Source of the DNA: Microcaldota archaeon
Lineage (GTDB): Archaea; Micrarchaeota; Micrarchaeia; Micrarchaeales; Micrarchaeaceae
NCBI GenBank assembly: GCA_021791535.1
Contig: JAJYWI010000021.1
Coordinates: 1-64,000 of the forward strand
Direction: 5' to 3'
DNA length: 64,000 nt
Shown here: positions 7,809-63,370 of the stretch, piece after piece
Layout of the letters: every line of letters starts with the position of its first letter
Numbering within the stretch: the stretch's first letter is position 1
Notes under the pieces: model-generated
Told to the model about the DNA's origin: nothing
Database searches by the model: none
Seen by the model: the letters and a program-made list of their open reading frames with translations, nothing else
Position numbers and translations under genes: made by a program

Positions 7809-10007
7809 CTATTTCTGGCGTATACGCACCTCGTTTCCGGCTACTATGTTCTCAACATCCAGTACCTTGCCCCTGTGGTCGAGCAGCTCTACCATGTACC
7901 TCCTGCCTTCGATTAGCTTGCACTGCACCGTGCAGGGCATCTCGTCTATCCGGCGCTCGCACACCTCTTCGCCGAGGTAGCTTATGCGCAGCGCCACCGC
8001 GTCGCCTCTTGGCCCATCAAACGTGATGGAGCAGCCCATGACCCTAGGAGCAGAAAGCCCCCTCCGCCTGGCGTATTCTGTTATCGGGTTAGGCGACGAA
8101 CGCGGCATGTCTGGATAATCCATGGTCCTAACGAATACGGTGTCACGCGCCCTTTTCTCGCTGCCCTCCCTGCTGATGTAGCTTAACGCACCTACCCTGG
8201 AATCGAGATGCTTCAGCTTCGCTGCAACATCGTCGTCCTTCACCGACGAGAAGACAAGGTCGCCGGCTGCGATCTCGGCCACGTCTGCCGCCTGCTTCAG
8301 GTACATCTTGAGCTGGCAGAGCCTCCTTATCCCGGTCTCTATGTCAGATACGCTGTGCGCGAGCAGAATAAGCCCTACGCCCTTCTTCCTGAAATCCTGT
8401 ATCCTATAACGCATGTCTTCCACTACCGGAGATTTCTGGTCCTTGAGCACCATCTGCGCTTCCTCAAGGCAAATCACAAGCCTCAGCTTGTCGTCGCCAT
8501 TGGAATCGAACGCCGATGCGATGGAATACACCTGGTTGAGCAGCAGCGCGTAGAAATGAGACTTCGTCTCCACCCCTGCGCCAGATATGTCGAAAACCAC
8601 GCCATTGCCAAGGAGCTCCTCTATGCAGATGCCCCTCTGTTCCGAATACTCTGGCATCTGCAGCACAGCGACAAGGTTCTCCATTGCGGACTTTATGTTC
8701 TCCCCGTGCTTTGTGTACTTTATGCCCGCGTTCGTTCGTTTGGCGTGCATCCTTATTATCGATTCCATAACCTCAGAATGCACAGCAAGAGGATCAGGTT
8801 CCCGCCCACCATGGTATATCCTCCGGAAGGCATTGAGCAGGCACTTCTCCATCGGGCTCCTGTATGGGCCTGCGGCGGACGCCGAAGCTAGTATCATGGC
8901 GAGCGACTCATAGAACCTGCGGATGTCAGCGCCTTCGGGGCACCTGAAGAAATTTATCGGGATGCCGTCATCGCATATCCTTACAAGGTTCATACCGTGC
9001 GCCAGCGCAAACGATCCCCACTCGTCTGTAGGGGATATTATGACGACCTTCGTGCCGCTGGAGCCCTTCACAACAGAGTCAAGCACGGCCATCGCCTCCC
9101 TGGTCTTGCCTGAGCCCGGCAGCCCGCTTATGATGAAGCCGAGGTTTAGCAACTGGCTATCAACTTTCACCATGTTGCCTGTCACGTGCACCGAGTCTTT
9201 CATGAAGCTTCCAAGCACGATGTTCCCGTATGACCTGGCATATCTCGCTGGGAGAATGTAACTTGTACCTGCGGATCCGTATACGTTTATCAGCATGCGC
9301 GCGAATCCGCTGCCGAAAGAGAGGCCCCTCAATCCCTCTGCATGCTGTATCAGGTAATCTATGCTCCCCTTGAAAGTATGCGACTCTAGATGCACCATGC
9401 GTTGCAGCAGGTATTTCATTATTTCATCGCTTGACGCAGCGAATACGATCTTGTATGCAGTCCCGTTCGCCATGACGGACCTGTTCAGCGACTCAAGCAT
9501 CTCGCCGAGCATAGCTGCATCGTCCGACTCTGTGAAATCTTTGTGCTGTACTGACATGCCGGTCCGCACGCCAGGCCCTGAGCCTGACACCGAATGGCTC
9601 CTGGCCACGCTTATGCCACTAAGCCTCCTCTCGATGTACTCCCTGGAGATCGCTGTCTCGTTTTCCCCTTGCTGCACGAAAACGATGCAAAGCGATCCCT
9701 TCATTCCCATATCGAAAACGTCTGATAGGAAGGACTCCGGTATGCTCTCAATGCCCCTATAGAGCGAGGCCACGCAGAAGGCGCCTTGCGATATAGGCCG
9801 CCCGGCATTAATGAAGCTAAGCCCAGGCACAGCCGCGCTTATCAGGTCAGGCAGCTTCGCCGCATGTTGACCAAGCGCAAGCAGGCACGACCTGCTCTCA
9901 AGCTCGTATACTATCATGAAGCTCTCCCTGCCTATAGTCTCTAGGAAGACTCCCCTGTCGAAGGGCTTGTCAGGCACAGATGCAACTTCGAAGTACTCAA
10001 CGTTCAT
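7809..10007 (-). CDS. HerA/VirB4-like P-loop ATPase (DUF87-type)
   Basis: Walker A GLPGSGKT, Walker B LVICLEEAQ, RKKGVGLILLAHS sensor region. Confidence 0.8.
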   Translation of the reverse strand: MNVEYFEVASVPDKPFDRGVFLETIGRESFMIVYELESRSCLLALGQHAAKLPDLISAAVPGLSFINAGRPISQGAFCVASLYRGIESIPESFLSDVFDMGMKGSLCIVFVQQGENETAISREYIERRLSGISVARSHSVSGSGPGVRTGMSVQHKDFTESDDAAMLGEMLESLNRSVMANGTAYKIVFAASSDEIMKYLLQRMVHLESHTFKGSIDYLIQHAEGLRGLSFGSGFARMLINVYGSAGTSYILPARYARSYGNIVLGSFMKDSVHVTGNMVKVDSQLLNLGFIISGLPGSGKTREAMAVLDSVVKGSSGTKVVIISPTDEWGSFALAHGMNLVRICDDGIPINFFRCPEGADIRRFYESLAMILASASAAGPYRSPMEKCLLNAFRRIYHGGREPDPLAVHSEVMESIIRMHAKRTNAGIKYTKHGENIKSAMENLVAVLQMPEYSEQRGICIEELLGNGVVFDISGAGVETKSHFYALLLNQVYSIASAFDSNGDDKLRLVICLEEAQMVLKDQKSPVVEDMRYRIQDFRKKGVGLILLAHSVSDIETGIRRLCQLKMYLKQAADVAEIAAGDLVFSSVKDDDVAAKLKHLDSRVGALSYISREGSEKRARDTVFVRTMDYPDMPRSSPNPITEYARRRGLSAPRVMGCSITFDGPRGDAVALRISYLGEEVCERRIDEMPCTVQCKLIEGRRYMVELLDHRGKVLDVENIVAGNEVRIRQK

Positions 10008-10378
10008 AGGACCAGCGCGAGCACAAGCACAGAAACAAATGCAGTGGCAGACACGGCAAGTTTGAGCCTGCCTGCCATCGCAAATCCACTGCCTTTTACA
10101 GATGCCACAGAGCAGTAAAGCAGCGCCGCGGCAGCGACAACTGCAGCAAGCGGCACCGTAGCCCCGTAATAGCCGATTATGCGCAGCAGCCCGTCAGCAG
10201 CGAAGAAGGCAGATGCGGCGAGCGCCACAACGTAGAAAATGAGATCCATGTGCCTCCGCACAGAGTAGAATTCCCTTGCAGAAAGCATAAAAACACCAAG
10301 GCCCGCGAGCACGCGGGCCCGAATTTTGGCGCCGCATGCAGCCCACACCCGCAGCGGCGATCTAATAAGGTATATCAA
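10004..10378 (-). CDS. Small membrane protein overlapping the ATPase start
   Basis: 3-4 hydrophobic segments; 4-nt overlap with downstream ATPase gene. Confidence 0.55.
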   Translation of the reverse strand: MIYLIRSPLRVWAACGAKIRARVLAGLGVFMLSAREFYSVRRHMDLIFYVVALAASAFFAADGLLRIIGYYGATVPLAAVVAAAALLYCSVASVKGSGFAMAGRLKLAVSATAFVSVLVLALVL

Positions 10379-12529: not shown

Positions 12530-12650
12530 CGCCAGGGTAGGGATTTGAACCCTAAAGCCCTTGCGGGCACCGGTTTTCTTTCGCATCACAGTTCAGCTCT
12601 TGACATCTAGGATTCAAGACCGGCGCGATACCAGATTCTGCCACCCTGGC
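12530..12650 (-). tRNA. tRNA-Ser(UGA) with ~37-nt intron at 37/38 (intron ~12576-12612)
   Basis: GCCAGGG/CCCTGGC acceptor, CCGGT-CTTGAA...ACCGG anticodon arm, GCCC-GCAA-GGGC variable arm, TAGGG-TTCAAAT-CCCTA T-arm, G73. Confidence 0.92.
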
Positions 12651-12661
12651 ATGCTATTCCT

Positions 12662-14407
12662 TTGCAAGGAACGTTTTTAACTGCAATGTTTTTCGAGATG
12701 ATGGATGATGATATGATTGTACTAAAAAAGATAATTGGACTATTCAAAAAGAGAAAAAGGCATTCGATAACGATAGGCAAAGCAAGGTCGGTGCTGGTTT
12801 CAGGGAATCTTGTATCGTACGGGCACGCAAGGAACGGGCCAAGGCTCCTCCTTCACCACGGCAGCAGGTGGAAGAGGGCCAGGAAAACGATATCGATTGA
12901 CCCGAGGAAGGAGCCGAACCCGCACATAATAATAGTCGGGATGAGCGGCTACGGCAAAAGCACCCTGTTCAAGTCCATGCTTCTCGACATAAAGAGCATG
13001 GGCATAGCAGCCATAGTGTTCGATGCGCACAACGAGCACGAGAGGCTCGTTAAGGCGCTAAACGGGAAGGTGCACGACGCTAGCCGCTCAGGCATAAACG
13101 TACTTGAGCTGAATGGCCTGTCTGTGCAGGAGCGCATAGCGGAGCTCGTATCAATGTTCAAAAGCGTATATGGGTTAGGCCACATACAGGCAACGAAGCT
13201 GAGCCAGTGCCTGTACTACACGTACAGGAAGAAAGGGACAGGCAATGCCGCCCCTGATATCGGCGACCTGATTGGCGAGCTCAGCATATTCATAAGGAAC
13301 GCAAAGGGAGCTGCAGAGCTCAATACACTGATGCACCTGCGTGAGAAGATATCCCTGCTGAGGAGCGCAGCGTTCATGCGCAACCCAGTCTCTATAGAAG
13401 GACTCAGCACAGGCATAAGCTCGTTTTCGCTGGCCGGGCTGAAGAGCAGCGAGGCTCGCATCATATACATACACGAGCTGCTGAAGAGGATATACCTCAG
13501 CATGAAGGGCAACGAGCGGGAGCTAGGGCTAAGGATATTCATGATGATAGACGAGGCGCAGTTCCTGTTGGGAGCGCAGAGGGAATTCAGCACCATAAGG
13601 AGCATAGTCGAAGAGGGCAGGAAGTACGGCGCAGGTGTCATAATAGCGACGCACGTGACAGCAAACCTTGACAAGCAGATACTAGCGAACGCATCAACGC
13701 TGATATCGTTCTATCCCAGAGATCCGTCAGAGATATCCTACGTATCAAGCGCCATGTCAGGCAGCAATCCGACCGAGAGGGACCTTGTAAGGGGCAAGCT
13801 CAGGTCCCTGAGGCAGAATGAGGCGATGGTGGTGAGCGGGCTTATGAAAGCACCAGTTGTGGTCGAGACGCCAGCAGCTCGGCGCATCAGCGAAACCATA
13901 GAGCGCATGGGAGCCGCGAAAAGCGATGCCGACAATGACTGGTTGTCCAAACTTGCCACTCCGACAGATTACGACACCGCAGAGCGCGATATAGGGCATG
14001 AAGCCATGAGCGCGCTAGTGGAAAAAGGGGCTGTGGAAACGATGGAGCACAACGGCAAGACGTATGTGATGAAAAAGAACCCTTCAAAGAGCATAGAGCA
14101 CGAGCTCCATGTGAGGGAGATATCCAAGCGCCTGTCAGAACTCGGCATAAGGCACTATGTGATGAACAACTCCATGGGCCCAGACGTAGTCGCATATATA
14201 AACGGGAAGAAGACTGCGGTAGAGTACGAGACAGGGAGGAAAAGCACGCAGAGCACGGCCAGGATGCTCGCGTCGAGGGCAAAGGAGTACGGCAGCGTGA
14301 TTGTTTTCGTGAACGCCCGCGCCGCAAAGTTCTACAAGGACACGTTCGGCAGCGACGCCGTCGCGGTCTTCAGCGCGGATGAGATCGCGAATGCTTTTGT
14401 AGTCTGA
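12662..14407 (+). CDS. HerA/VirD4-like ATPase fused to a C-terminal probable PD-(D/E)XK nuclease domain
   Basis: Walker A GMSGYGKS, Walker B IFMMIDEAQ, C-terminal GPDVVAYINGKKTAVEYETGRKS. Confidence 0.75.
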   Translation: MQGTFLTAMFFEMMDDDMIVLKKIIGLFKKRKRHSITIGKARSVLVSGNLVSYGHARNGPRLLLHHGSRWKRARKTISIDPRKEPNPHIIIVGMSGYGKSTLFKSMLLDIKSMGIAAIVFDAHNEHERLVKALNGKVHDASRSGINVLELNGLSVQERIAELVSMFKSVYGLGHIQATKLSQCLYYTYRKKGTGNAAPDIGDLIGELSIFIRNAKGAAELNTLMHLREKISLLRSAAFMRNPVSIEGLSTGISSFSLAGLKSSEARIIYIHELLKRIYLSMKGNERELGLRIFMMIDEAQFLLGAQREFSTIRSIVEEGRKYGAGVIIATHVTANLDKQILANASTLISFYPRDPSEISYVSSAMSGSNPTERDLVRGKLRSLRQNEAMVVSGLMKAPVVVETPAARRISETIERMGAAKSDADNDWLSKLATPTDYDTAERDIGHEAMSALVEKGAVETMEHNGKTYVMKKNPSKSIEHELHVREISKRLSELGIRHYVMNNSMGPDVVAYINGKKTAVEYETGRKSTQSTARMLASRAKEYGSVIVFVNARAAKFYKDTFGSDAVAVFSADEIANAFVV

Positions 14408-35536: not shown

Positions 35537-37846
35537 ATGATAAAGGAGATAGAGCTCCGCAACTGGAGGACCCACGGGCATACGAAGATGTCATTCCAGA
35601 AAGGCGTCAATGTCCTTGTAGGCATAATGGGGTCTGGCAAAAGCTCTGTCATGGAGGCGATATCGTTCGCGCTTTTCGGCACATTCCCTATGGTAAAGCA
35701 GAGGAGGGCCAAACTGGAGGGGATGATAAAGAACAGGCCTGTGCAGGAGAGCGAGGCTGAGGTACGGCTGACTTTCGAGGTCGGCAAGGACGAGTATACA
35801 GTCACAAGGAGGATAACCGGCGCAGGGTCCACCACAGCCAGGCTGGATAAGAACGGTGCGCACCTCCAGTCACAGCCGGTCAGGGTGAATGAGGAGATAG
35901 CTAGCGTGCTGAAGGTGGATTACGACACTTTTGCACGTGCGATATACGCTGAGCAGAATGGGCTGGAGTACTTCCTAGACATAGCCAAAGGCGACAGGAA
36001 GAAGCAGATAGACGGCATGCTCGGCCTCGACCAGTTCGCCACCGCCGAGGAGAACTGCACAACGCTGATAAACAACATAAAGGCCGCAACAAGCGGCGAG
36101 GAAAGCATCCTGGCAGGGATGGACGTCGCATCGTTGACGAAGCAGCTCGAGAGGGCAGCCTCAGAGAAGGAAGCGGCTCTTAAGGAGATTAGCGATTTGA
36201 AGAGGAGCGAAGCATCGATCAAGGCAGACCTTGAGAGGATCAACGAGTTGATGGCGAAGCAGCGCCAGATGTACAAGAGGAAGGAGGAGCTGCTGAAGAA
36301 GGCAGCCGAGCTCTCGGGCAGGGTGCAGCTCCTGAAAGAGGAACTGGAAAAGATAAACGCAAAGACGAAAAGCCTGATGGAAAGCGCAGTCTATAATGCG
36401 ATGGTGCAACAGCTGGCCAAGGAGAAGGAATCAAAAGAGGAGATAGAGAGCGCGGAAAAGATGGTCAGGTCTATAATGAAGGAGGTGGCAGGCCTGCAGG
36501 CGTCAATAAAGAATGATGAGAGGAGGCTGGCTGAAAAGATTAAGGTTGAGGCGCAGGCGAAGCTCGGGAGCGTACCTTCCCTTGAAAAGGAGCTCGCCTT
36601 AGAGACGGAATCTCTCAACGCGTTGATTAACAGCGCAGCACTCGGCAGGAGCAGGTTCTCAGACATCGACGCTTCGCTCAAGGAACTGCGGAAACACCTC
36701 GCCAAATGCCCAATATGCGAGCGGGAGTTGGGCGCTGAGCTGAGCGAGCGGCTGATAGCGGCAAAGCAGGCGGAGGCGGACGCGCTGCAAAAAGGGATAG
36801 TGCAGAGCGATACGCTGATAGAGCAGAAAAGGGCCGCTGTAAAAAGGATTGGCGAAGAGATTGCTGTACTTTCGCGCGCGAACAGCAGGCTTGAGGAATA
36901 CGCCGGCGTCGAGGAGGCGCTGCTGAGGAACAGGGAGCACTTCGCCAGGCTTTCCAAGGACCTGGAGGAATCTGCAAGGATGCTTGAGGACAGGAAGCTT
37001 GAGCTAGAAAAGCTGAAAGAAAAGACACAGGATACACGTGCAATGCTTGAGCTGTACAAGAAAAAGGCCGAGTATGAGACCGAGATGGTCAACTGCTCGA
37101 AGCTGGCTGAGAACAACAGGCGCGAATCTGAATCTATCACCGTAAGCCAGAGCGACCTTGATTCGATGCAAAGCAGCCTTACGGAGAGGAGCGCTGCGCT
37201 TGCAAAGGCCACCGCTACAATCACAGGGGCGGAGAAACAGGTAGCCGGGCTTGATGCAAACATCGCAAGCCTGGTGAAGCAGATAGACAGCATAAAGGAG
37301 CTGCAGCAGAGGATAGAGAGGCGCAGGTCCGTGCTGAAGAACCTCAATATCTTCAAGACATCGCTCGTCGACACCGAGGCATTCCTGCGCGGCAGGCTCA
37401 CGCAGTCTATAAACAGCCTGATGCAGGGCATCTGGCCAGATCTTTACCCGTATGCGGACTACCAGAGGCTGAGGCTGAGCGCGAAGCCTGACGACTACCT
37501 GCTTGAGGTGGATGTGCAGAGCAATGGCGCGAGCGACTGGGTACAGGTGGATGCGGTCGCCAGCGGCGGCGAGCGCAGCATCGCCTGCTTAGCGATGCGC
37601 ATAGCCCTCTCAATGGTGGTCGTACCGAACCTCAGGTGGCTGATACTCGACGAACCCACTCACAACATAGACGCTAGCGGCATATCGAAGCTGATAAGCG
37701 TACTCGGAGACACGCTGCCAAATGTCGTGGAGCAGGTGTTCATAATAACGCATGATGATAATCTGAAGCAGATAACGTCAGCGAAGGTGTACCAGCTCGA
37801 GCGCGACAAGGGCTCCGCCGGGTCGACGACGGTCTCAGAACTGTAG
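35537..37846 (+). CDS. rad50: DNA double-strand break repair ATPase Rad50
   Basis: Walker A GIMGSGKSS, zinc hook CPICERELG, SGGERSIACLAMRIALS signature, LILDEPT. Confidence 0.93.
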   Translation: MIKEIELRNWRTHGHTKMSFQKGVNVLVGIMGSGKSSVMEAISFALFGTFPMVKQRRAKLEGMIKNRPVQESEAEVRLTFEVGKDEYTVTRRITGAGSTTARLDKNGAHLQSQPVRVNEEIASVLKVDYDTFARAIYAEQNGLEYFLDIAKGDRKKQIDGMLGLDQFATAEENCTTLINNIKAATSGEESILAGMDVASLTKQLERAASEKEAALKEISDLKRSEASIKADLERINELMAKQRQMYKRKEELLKKAAELSGRVQLLKEELEKINAKTKSLMESAVYNAMVQQLAKEKESKEEIESAEKMVRSIMKEVAGLQASIKNDERRLAEKIKVEAQAKLGSVPSLEKELALETESLNALINSAALGRSRFSDIDASLKELRKHLAKCPICERELGAELSERLIAAKQAEADALQKGIVQSDTLIEQKRAAVKRIGEEIAVLSRANSRLEEYAGVEEALLRNREHFARLSKDLEESARMLEDRKLELEKLKEKTQDTRAMLELYKKKAEYETEMVNCSKLAENNRRESESITVSQSDLDSMQSSLTERSAALAKATATITGAEKQVAGLDANIASLVKQIDSIKELQQRIERRRSVLKNLNIFKTSLVDTEAFLRGRLTQSINSLMQGIWPDLYPYADYQRLRLSAKPDDYLLEVDVQSNGASDWVQVDAVASGGERSIACLAMRIALSMVVVPNLRWLILDEPTHNIDASGISKLISVLGDTLPNVVEQVFIITHDDNLKQITSAKVYQLERDKGSAGSTTVSEL

Positions 37847-45624: not shown

Positions 45625-45885
45625 AGTGGCAGAAGCCGCCTTGCGCTCTGCACCCATGAAGGATGGTCTGCGCTTTGGCTCGGCCCTGTATCCTAAGAGC
45701 ATAGCTTTGCCATGCTTAGGGTTGCTCCTTCCGGCCTGGCCCGGTTCACATAGTGAGCTACCACATAGGGCAGGACGTCTACGCTTCCGCGCAGGTCCGG
45801 CACAGATGCATGGCACTCGGACGGCATTGGCCCGCCAAAAGGGATTTGCGGATTGGAGACCCTTAGCCTCCAGCCTATCTGCCAC
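45625..45885 (-). ncRNA. ffs: Signal recognition particle 7S RNA
   Basis: Minus strand GGGCCAGGCCGGAAGGAGCAACCC matches the SRP domain IV core; termini pair GTGGCAG/CTGCCAC; ends approximate. Confidence 0.87.
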
Positions 45886-63256: not shown

Positions 63257-63370
63257 GGGCCCATAGCTCAGCTTGGATAGAGCGACAGCCTTCTAACAAA
63301 CTTCTTAGAAAGAAGTTCGATCAAGAAAGAGGAAAGCTGAAGGTCGCGGGTTCAAATCCCGCTGGGCCCG
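63257..63370 (+). tRNA. tRNA-Arg(UCU) with ~39-nt intron (~63296-63334)
   Basis: GGGCCCA/TGGGCCC acceptor, GCTC..GAGC D-arm, CAGC-CTTCTA...GCTG, T-arm GCGGG-TTCAAAT-CCCGC; A27-A43 mismatch. Confidence 0.9.

Follow-up and report, generated by a model that had tools for sequence, protein, structure and literature searches.

A reading frame in the genome of a Microcaldota archaeon (741 kb in 25 contigs) joins a translocase-type ATPase to a nuclease-like domain and lies beside a tRNA gene, raising the question of what such a protein does for its host. A preliminary description, made from the letters of the analysed stretch of 64,000 nucleotides (hereafter the window), proposed a single-chain DNA-translocating nuclease that could serve defence, mobilisation or DNA-end processing. 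Pfam, Foldseek, the predicted fold and residue conservation agree that the protein is indeed one chain made of a DNA-translocase ATPase and a restriction-endonuclease-fold domain. Which of the three tasks it performs was addressed through its relatives, its structure prediction and its genomic setting.

Domain architecture of the fusion protein

The reading frame is present as described. Its product consists of a HerA/VirB4-type ATPase to which a winged helix and then a PD-(D/E)XK-fold domain are joined on the C-terminal side. The full-length protein was predicted by AlphaFold2 with a pLDDT of 78.8. The features of the coding region are:

12662..14407, forward strand: ATPase–nuclease fusion reading frame, 581 aa counted from TTG
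12938..12961, forward strand: Walker A, GMSGYGKS, residues 93–100; glycines, K and S kept in 36–38 of 38 aligned relatives
13550..13555, forward strand: acidic pair of Walker B, D297–E298 (in MMIDEAQ), kept in 38 of 38 aligned relatives
13613..13630, forward strand: EGRKYG motif, residues 318–323, kept in 37–38 of 38 at each position
13970..14074, forward strand: winged-helix domain, about residues 437–471, from AlphaFold2 models
14093..14395, forward strand: PD-(D/E)XK-fold domain, residues 478–578, with an alpha-beta-beta-beta-alpha-beta core, from the model and Foldseek
14099..14230, forward strand: putative catalytic residues H480 (14099), D508 (14183), E521 (14222) and E523 (14228), proposed from conservation

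Relatives for the alignments were gathered from 85 genomes of the archaeon's family and from public contigs, where the closest named ones belong to Candidatus Micrarchaeota. The Walker A and Walker B motifs first read from the DNA were located at the residues given above and, together with EGRKYG and several further ATPase columns, are invariant or nearly so among the aligned relatives. EGRKYG, which is typical of VirB4/HerA ATPases, is a candidate arginine finger.

Pfam detected the HerA central domain DUF87 at residues 72–189 (39.6 bits; cut-off 23.2), as well as TrwB_AAD_bind (36.1 bits; cut-off 20.5) and AAA_10 (29.7 bits; cut-off 27.5). The top NCBIfam matches were CedB, VirB4, CedD and HerA, all far under their curated cut-offs, with CedB scoring best (60.9 bits; cut-off 700). 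Compared with solved structures in the PDB using Foldseek, the ATPase was closest to DndH-C (TM-score 0.73 by target), and VirB4 of Thermoanaerobacter and HerA reached TM-scores of 0.70 and 0.50. The Walker A and B motifs, a RecA-like ASCE core and an RKY arginine-finger region place the ATPase in the HerA/VirB4 group of the FtsK-HerA superfamily. Of the initial label, a HerA/VirD4-type ATPase, the HerA part is therefore retained within a HerA/VirB4 group and the VirD4 part dropped, CedB, VirB4 and HerA being the best NCBIfam matches. A VirD4-type coupling protein was rejected because inspection revealed no clear N-terminal membrane segment and the NCBIfam TraD score was low (22.4 of 521 bits), though TrwB_AAD_bind does match. 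Canonical HerA was rejected on a score of 39.8 of 800 bits on the curated model, the absence of nurA and the distance of 21 kb to the Rad50-like gene of the window (35537–37846).

Modelled alone, the C-terminal part (residues 424–581) reached a pLDDT of 91.2 in AlphaFold2 and showed the core arrangement of the PD-(D/E)XK phosphodiesterase superfamily. Foldseek against the PDB returned HindIII as the best match, with VC1899 and FokI, at E ≤ 2.5e-4; AF2093 and Hjc resolvases came next (Hjc at E of about 3e-3 to 1e-2). These restriction-enzyme-fold matches bear out the nuclease-like domain suspected from the sequence. Pfam searched with the C-terminal domain alone returned nothing relevant and no nuclease family, and the full fusion protein had no match to PF09376, on which ground a NurA nuclease was rejected.

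Conservation of the site was assessed in 65 relatives, comprising 28 fusions of the archaeon's family, 25 fusions of a sister family and 12 distant proteins. H480, D508, E523, T524 and G525 are invariant in all 65 and E521 is kept in 64, so that the PD...ExE pattern noted at first sight is real and far beyond chance. The classical lysine position is occupied by E523 throughout, producing an E-x-E variant in which D508 and E521 are conserved; K527 is frequent in the two fusion families but not outside them.

The replacement of the canonical lysine by glutamate could indicate that the domain is catalytically dead, or a mere DNA-binding or assembly module. However, E-x-E sites are known from active enzymes such as BamHI, which makes nuclease activity of the C-terminal domain likely. 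The acidic residues and the histidine are, moreover, almost invariant across very divergent proteins, and one relative carries an HNH nuclease at the same place; loss of catalysis is thus improbable. In this relative (L039/L033), the ATPase runs in frame into the HNH nuclease, which replaces the PD-(D/E)XK domain (45.5 bits; cut-off 21.4). The gene lies at 2607–3812 of L039, and its N-terminal part is in another frame, with the break before Walker A, so that the gene may be in decay or the assembly faulty. A genuine swap would support selection for a nuclease at that position.

Two further proteins combine a winged helix with the ExETG domain and have no ATPase (L113, 2705–3562; L114, 6243–7541). 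The first has an N-terminal membrane-like segment, and the frame of the second opens with a transposase-like region.

Chromosomal conservation and a proposed role in DNA-end processing

The fusion gene is chromosomal. About 26 of the 32 high-quality genomes of the archaeon's family encode the C-terminal domain, and the same ATPase–nuclease fusion is present in the sister family. In the window, the neighbours on one side are methionine sulfoxide reductases, a GHMP kinase (mevalonate-kinase-like) and a phosphoribosyltransferase, and on the other a CDP-alcohol phosphatidyltransferase-like gene and a respiratory-complex-like operon. In other genera, the fusion gene adjoins ribosomal-protein-like and UbiA-like genes (named by inspection). 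The context is a housekeeping one, yet the putative catalytic residues are conserved. Some near-complete genomes of the family lack the fusion (G004, assembled as one contig, G009, G050 and G051), showing that the gene is not essential everywhere. Elsewhere in the window, at 45629–45882 on the reverse strand, an SRP RNA scored as a member of the bacterial large SRP family, likely just the best of several related models.

Within the sister family, a gene for endonuclease IV (nfo) lies upstream of the fusion on the same strand at 22 of 26 loci, and within 80 nt at 14. This AP_endonuc_2 gene scores as endonuclease IV on TIGR00587 (226–239 bits; cut-off 129.65). The window's genome has nfo on another contig than the fusion gene, confining the association to the sister family. 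At most sister-family loci, nfo and the fusion are preceded on the same strand by a further conserved gene (for example L118, 5258–5821; L116, 11946–12515), whose product of about 189 aa has no Pfam or NCBIfam match.

NurA had no match in 84 of 85 genomes of the archaeon's family and in 78 of 79 of the sister family; the same search detects NurA in control archaea. A DUF87 search of the window's genome returned just three proteins above the cut-off, namely the fusion and one ATPase from each of two clusters, located on contigs C25 and C1; no separate HerA was recognised. Processing of DNA ends or DNA damage is favoured by the link to nfo, by the missing NurA, by conservation on the chromosome and by surroundings that contain no secretion cluster. 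Rad50, encoded in the window, also counts for a repair task. End processing, one of the tasks guessed at the outset, is hence the best of the readings, and we regard it as an evenly balanced proposition that the fusion is a one-chain translocase–nuclease that processes chromosomal DNA ends, similar in its working to HerA–NurA and equipped with an unrelated nuclease.

Such a protein would be a HerA/VirB4-group DNA translocase with a built-in nuclease, either soluble or attached peripherally to the membrane. Its ATPase domains would assemble in sixes into a ring through which double-stranded DNA is pumped, the winged helix of the C-terminal part would hold the DNA in position, and the PD-(D/E)XK-fold domain, through its putative H-D-ExE metal site, would cut the DNA on its exit from the ring. 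The likely substrates would be chromosomal DNA ends or damaged DNA, with the protein supporting recombination or excision repair, a task that HerA plus NurA perform elsewhere in archaea.

The HerA–NurA system of archaea, Deinococcus and Thermus likewise combines a hexameric translocase ATPase of the HerA group with a nuclease, and DNA-end processing has been proposed for it. In contrast to that system, the fusion is one chain instead of two, its N-terminal region is much shorter than that of HerA, and its nuclease has a PD-(D/E)XK fold, whereas NurA has an RNase H-like fold. The literature describes HerA–NurA from thermophilic archaea and as essential in Sulfolobus islandicus (PMC4351679; PMC5715905). 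Against a repair function stand the restriction of the nfo link to the sister family, the absence of the gene from some genomes, the existence of VirB4 relatives and the glutamate in place of the catalytic lysine.

DNA transfer, defence and the adjacent tRNA gene

These VirB4 relatives and an association with the C1-type system, uncorrected for kinship (see below), keep DNA transfer as the main rival. The fusion would then be a T4SS/Ced-like component, derived from VirB4 by loss of the membrane-docking N-terminus, that readies or trims the DNA being imported or exported, which we consider rather unlikely. In other micrarchaeal families of the class, proteins of 1000–1100 aa can be matched to VirB4 models along most of the chain and end in the same H-D-ExETG domain, and one of their genes (L107) has two VirB2-like pilins nearby. 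A secretion relative therefore exists for the domain and perhaps also for the motor.

The window's genome itself holds two T4SS/Ced-like clusters. One (L062, G000:C25:33000-49000) encodes several multi-membrane-span proteins and a CedD/CedB-like ATPase; relatives of this C25-type ATPase occur in most of the 85 family genomes. The other (L063, G000:C1:22000-36000) encodes a T4SS pilin (PF18895, 26.9 bits; cut-off 26.6), a multi-span protein and a CedB-like ATPase. The multi-span proteins, which have no Pfam match above the cut-off, may be CedA/VirB6-like. In the window, a 732-aa VirB4-like ATPase (7809–10007, reverse strand) overlaps by 4 nt the frame at 10004–10378 (reverse strand), whose 124-aa product has hydrophobic segments, an arrangement resembling VirB3–VirB4. 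In many other genera, this 732-aa ATPase is encoded at most a few kb from the C1-type ATPase, that of the T4SS-pilin-type cluster; in the window's genus, it has been relocated beside the fusion. The fusion and the 732-aa ATPase co-occur among the 32 high-quality genomes (23/4/1/4; Fisher p = 0.009, uncorrected for kinship). That CedB is the best NCBIfam match points the same way, though the score is far below the cut-off.

Several observations weigh against a transfer function. The fusion gene was outside T4SS clusters in every locus examined, and genomes G014, G016 and G080 keep it without a clear full-length relative of the 732-aa ATPase or a close relative of the C1-type ATPase. Conversely, G004 lacks the fusion yet carries the widespread C25-type ATPase. 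The sister family ties the fusion to endonuclease IV, and the N-terminal domain of VirB4 is missing. In a tree of ATPase domains, built without canonical HerA, VirD4 or SPEARE reference sequences, the fusion forms its own clade (98/95) that is not nested in the VirB4–nuclease proteins, which group with the two T4SS/Ced-like ATPases (90/84). A placement of the fusion as sister to VirB4 with a nuclease is thus unsupported by the ATPase domain alone. The same tree does not appear to place the fusion with HerA, canonical HerA not being included, a further point against the repair reading.

A VirB4 of a T4SS was rejected as an identity for the protein, since only its ATPase and C-terminal parts align to the VirB4–nuclease proteins and no T4SS neighbours are present. 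T4SS VirB4 proteins, among them DPANN members that end in a nuclease-fold domain, share with the fusion the ATPase core, the winged helix and the H-D-ExETG C-terminus, but their N-terminal VirB3/VirB4 half of about 450 aa is missing from the fusion. CedB and CedD of Sulfolobales DNA import are also archaeal DNA-translocating ATPases of the HerA/VirB4 group; unlike the fusion, they have membrane anchors and VirB4-like N-terminal parts (PMC11868833), and no nuclease domain is described for them.

There is only a small probability that the fusion is an anti-phage or anti-plasmid effector comparable to HerA–nuclease or SIR2–HerA systems. PADLOC profiles match the ATPase (mad8, 70.6 bits; DndH, 56.9 bits; HerA, 46.8 bits), and the nearest solved folds include a defence HerA and DndH-C. 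However, the PADLOC matches cover the ATPase, which is common to all HerA-group proteins. The metabolic and housekeeping neighbours score only weakly in PADLOC, and scanning them with PADLOC and Pfam found no partner gene. Known anti-phage HerA systems were rejected because no partner effector gene (SIR2, DUF4297, Dnd and others) is adjacent. The stable chromosomal setting, the lack of any match to the C-terminal domain in a plasmid collection and the single weak match of the whole fusion protein in a phage search are unlike patchy defence islands. DndH/SspH and defence HerA proteins resemble the fusion in their ATPase fold but differ in overall domain make-up and in their Dnd/Ssp or other defence partners. 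The proposed defence function was consequently not upheld.

The tRNA gene beside the fusion and its upstream element are:

12530..12650, reverse strand: intron-containing tRNA, tRNA-Ser(UGA) by sequence (Rfam RF00005, 39 bits), divergent partner of the fusion gene
12673..12681, reverse strand: TATA-like box of the tRNA, reading GTTAAAAAC, within the TTG-started reading frame

Rfam found this tRNA, confirming the intron-containing tRNA-Ser of the preliminary description, and ARAGORN missed it. This tRNA lies divergently upstream of the fusion gene at 33 of 36 further loci of the family, within 160 nt at 29, and the outer neighbours differ. Across 30 loci, the AT content upstream of the tRNA peaks at −25 to −30 from its 5′ end, corresponding to the TATA-like box. 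The tRNA and the fusion gene share what reads as a common promoter region, which can explain their lasting linkage. Because the TATA-like box falls inside the frame counted from TTG, the TTG is probably the wrong start and the true one probably an ATG at 12686, 12698, 12701 or 12713; relatives also align better with starts at ATG 12686–12713 than at the TTG.

Integrases generally target the 3′ part of tRNA genes. Here, the immediately adjacent tRNA has the fusion gene next to its 5′ end, in divergent orientation, and the site is therefore not a classical attachment site. With the pair kept while its outer neighbours change, a linkage accounted for by the shared promoter region, with no integrase seen near the fusion gene and no tRNA adjacent to the fusion in the six sister-family loci examined, membership in an element integrated at the tRNA gene is highly improbable, and a reading of recent mobilisation was not upheld.

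At three loci (L023, L030 and L050), the tRNA-Ser(UGA) upstream of the fusion carries about 20 nt of extra sequence in the T-arm, possibly a second intron. Another intron-containing tRNA of the window (63257–63370, forward strand) was also seen by Rfam and missed by ARAGORN.

Implications for micrarchaeal DNA processing

The consulted portions of open-licence papers on HerA–NurA, Ced/Ted (PMC9905601; PMC11868833), TdtA, which has a NurA-like partner in Thermus transjugation (PMC5365140), and SPEARE contain no description of this fusion. SPEARE of nanohaloarchaea, a VirB4-like ATPase in DPANN, was reported in the original study to have a cytoplasmic restriction-endonuclease region, and SPEARE-like sequences were reported there in Micrarchaeota (PMC6642349). 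A 2023 reanalysis denied a nuclease domain in SPEARE (PMC10266531). Compared by description only, the fusion differs from SPEARE in lacking the giant extracellular adhesion part and a clear transmembrane anchor. For this dispute, a VirB4-like DPANN protein with a restriction-endonuclease domain, by predicted fold, is present in Micrarchaeota, and its H-D-ExE site is almost invariant.

Tentatively, a host-dependent DPANN order may have swapped HerA–NurA for a one-chain motor and nuclease of the VirB4 secretion lineage, recruited to repair. With NurA missing from almost all genomes of both micrarchaeal families and a widespread one-chain candidate at hand, the question of how these archaea process DNA ends becomes directly testable.
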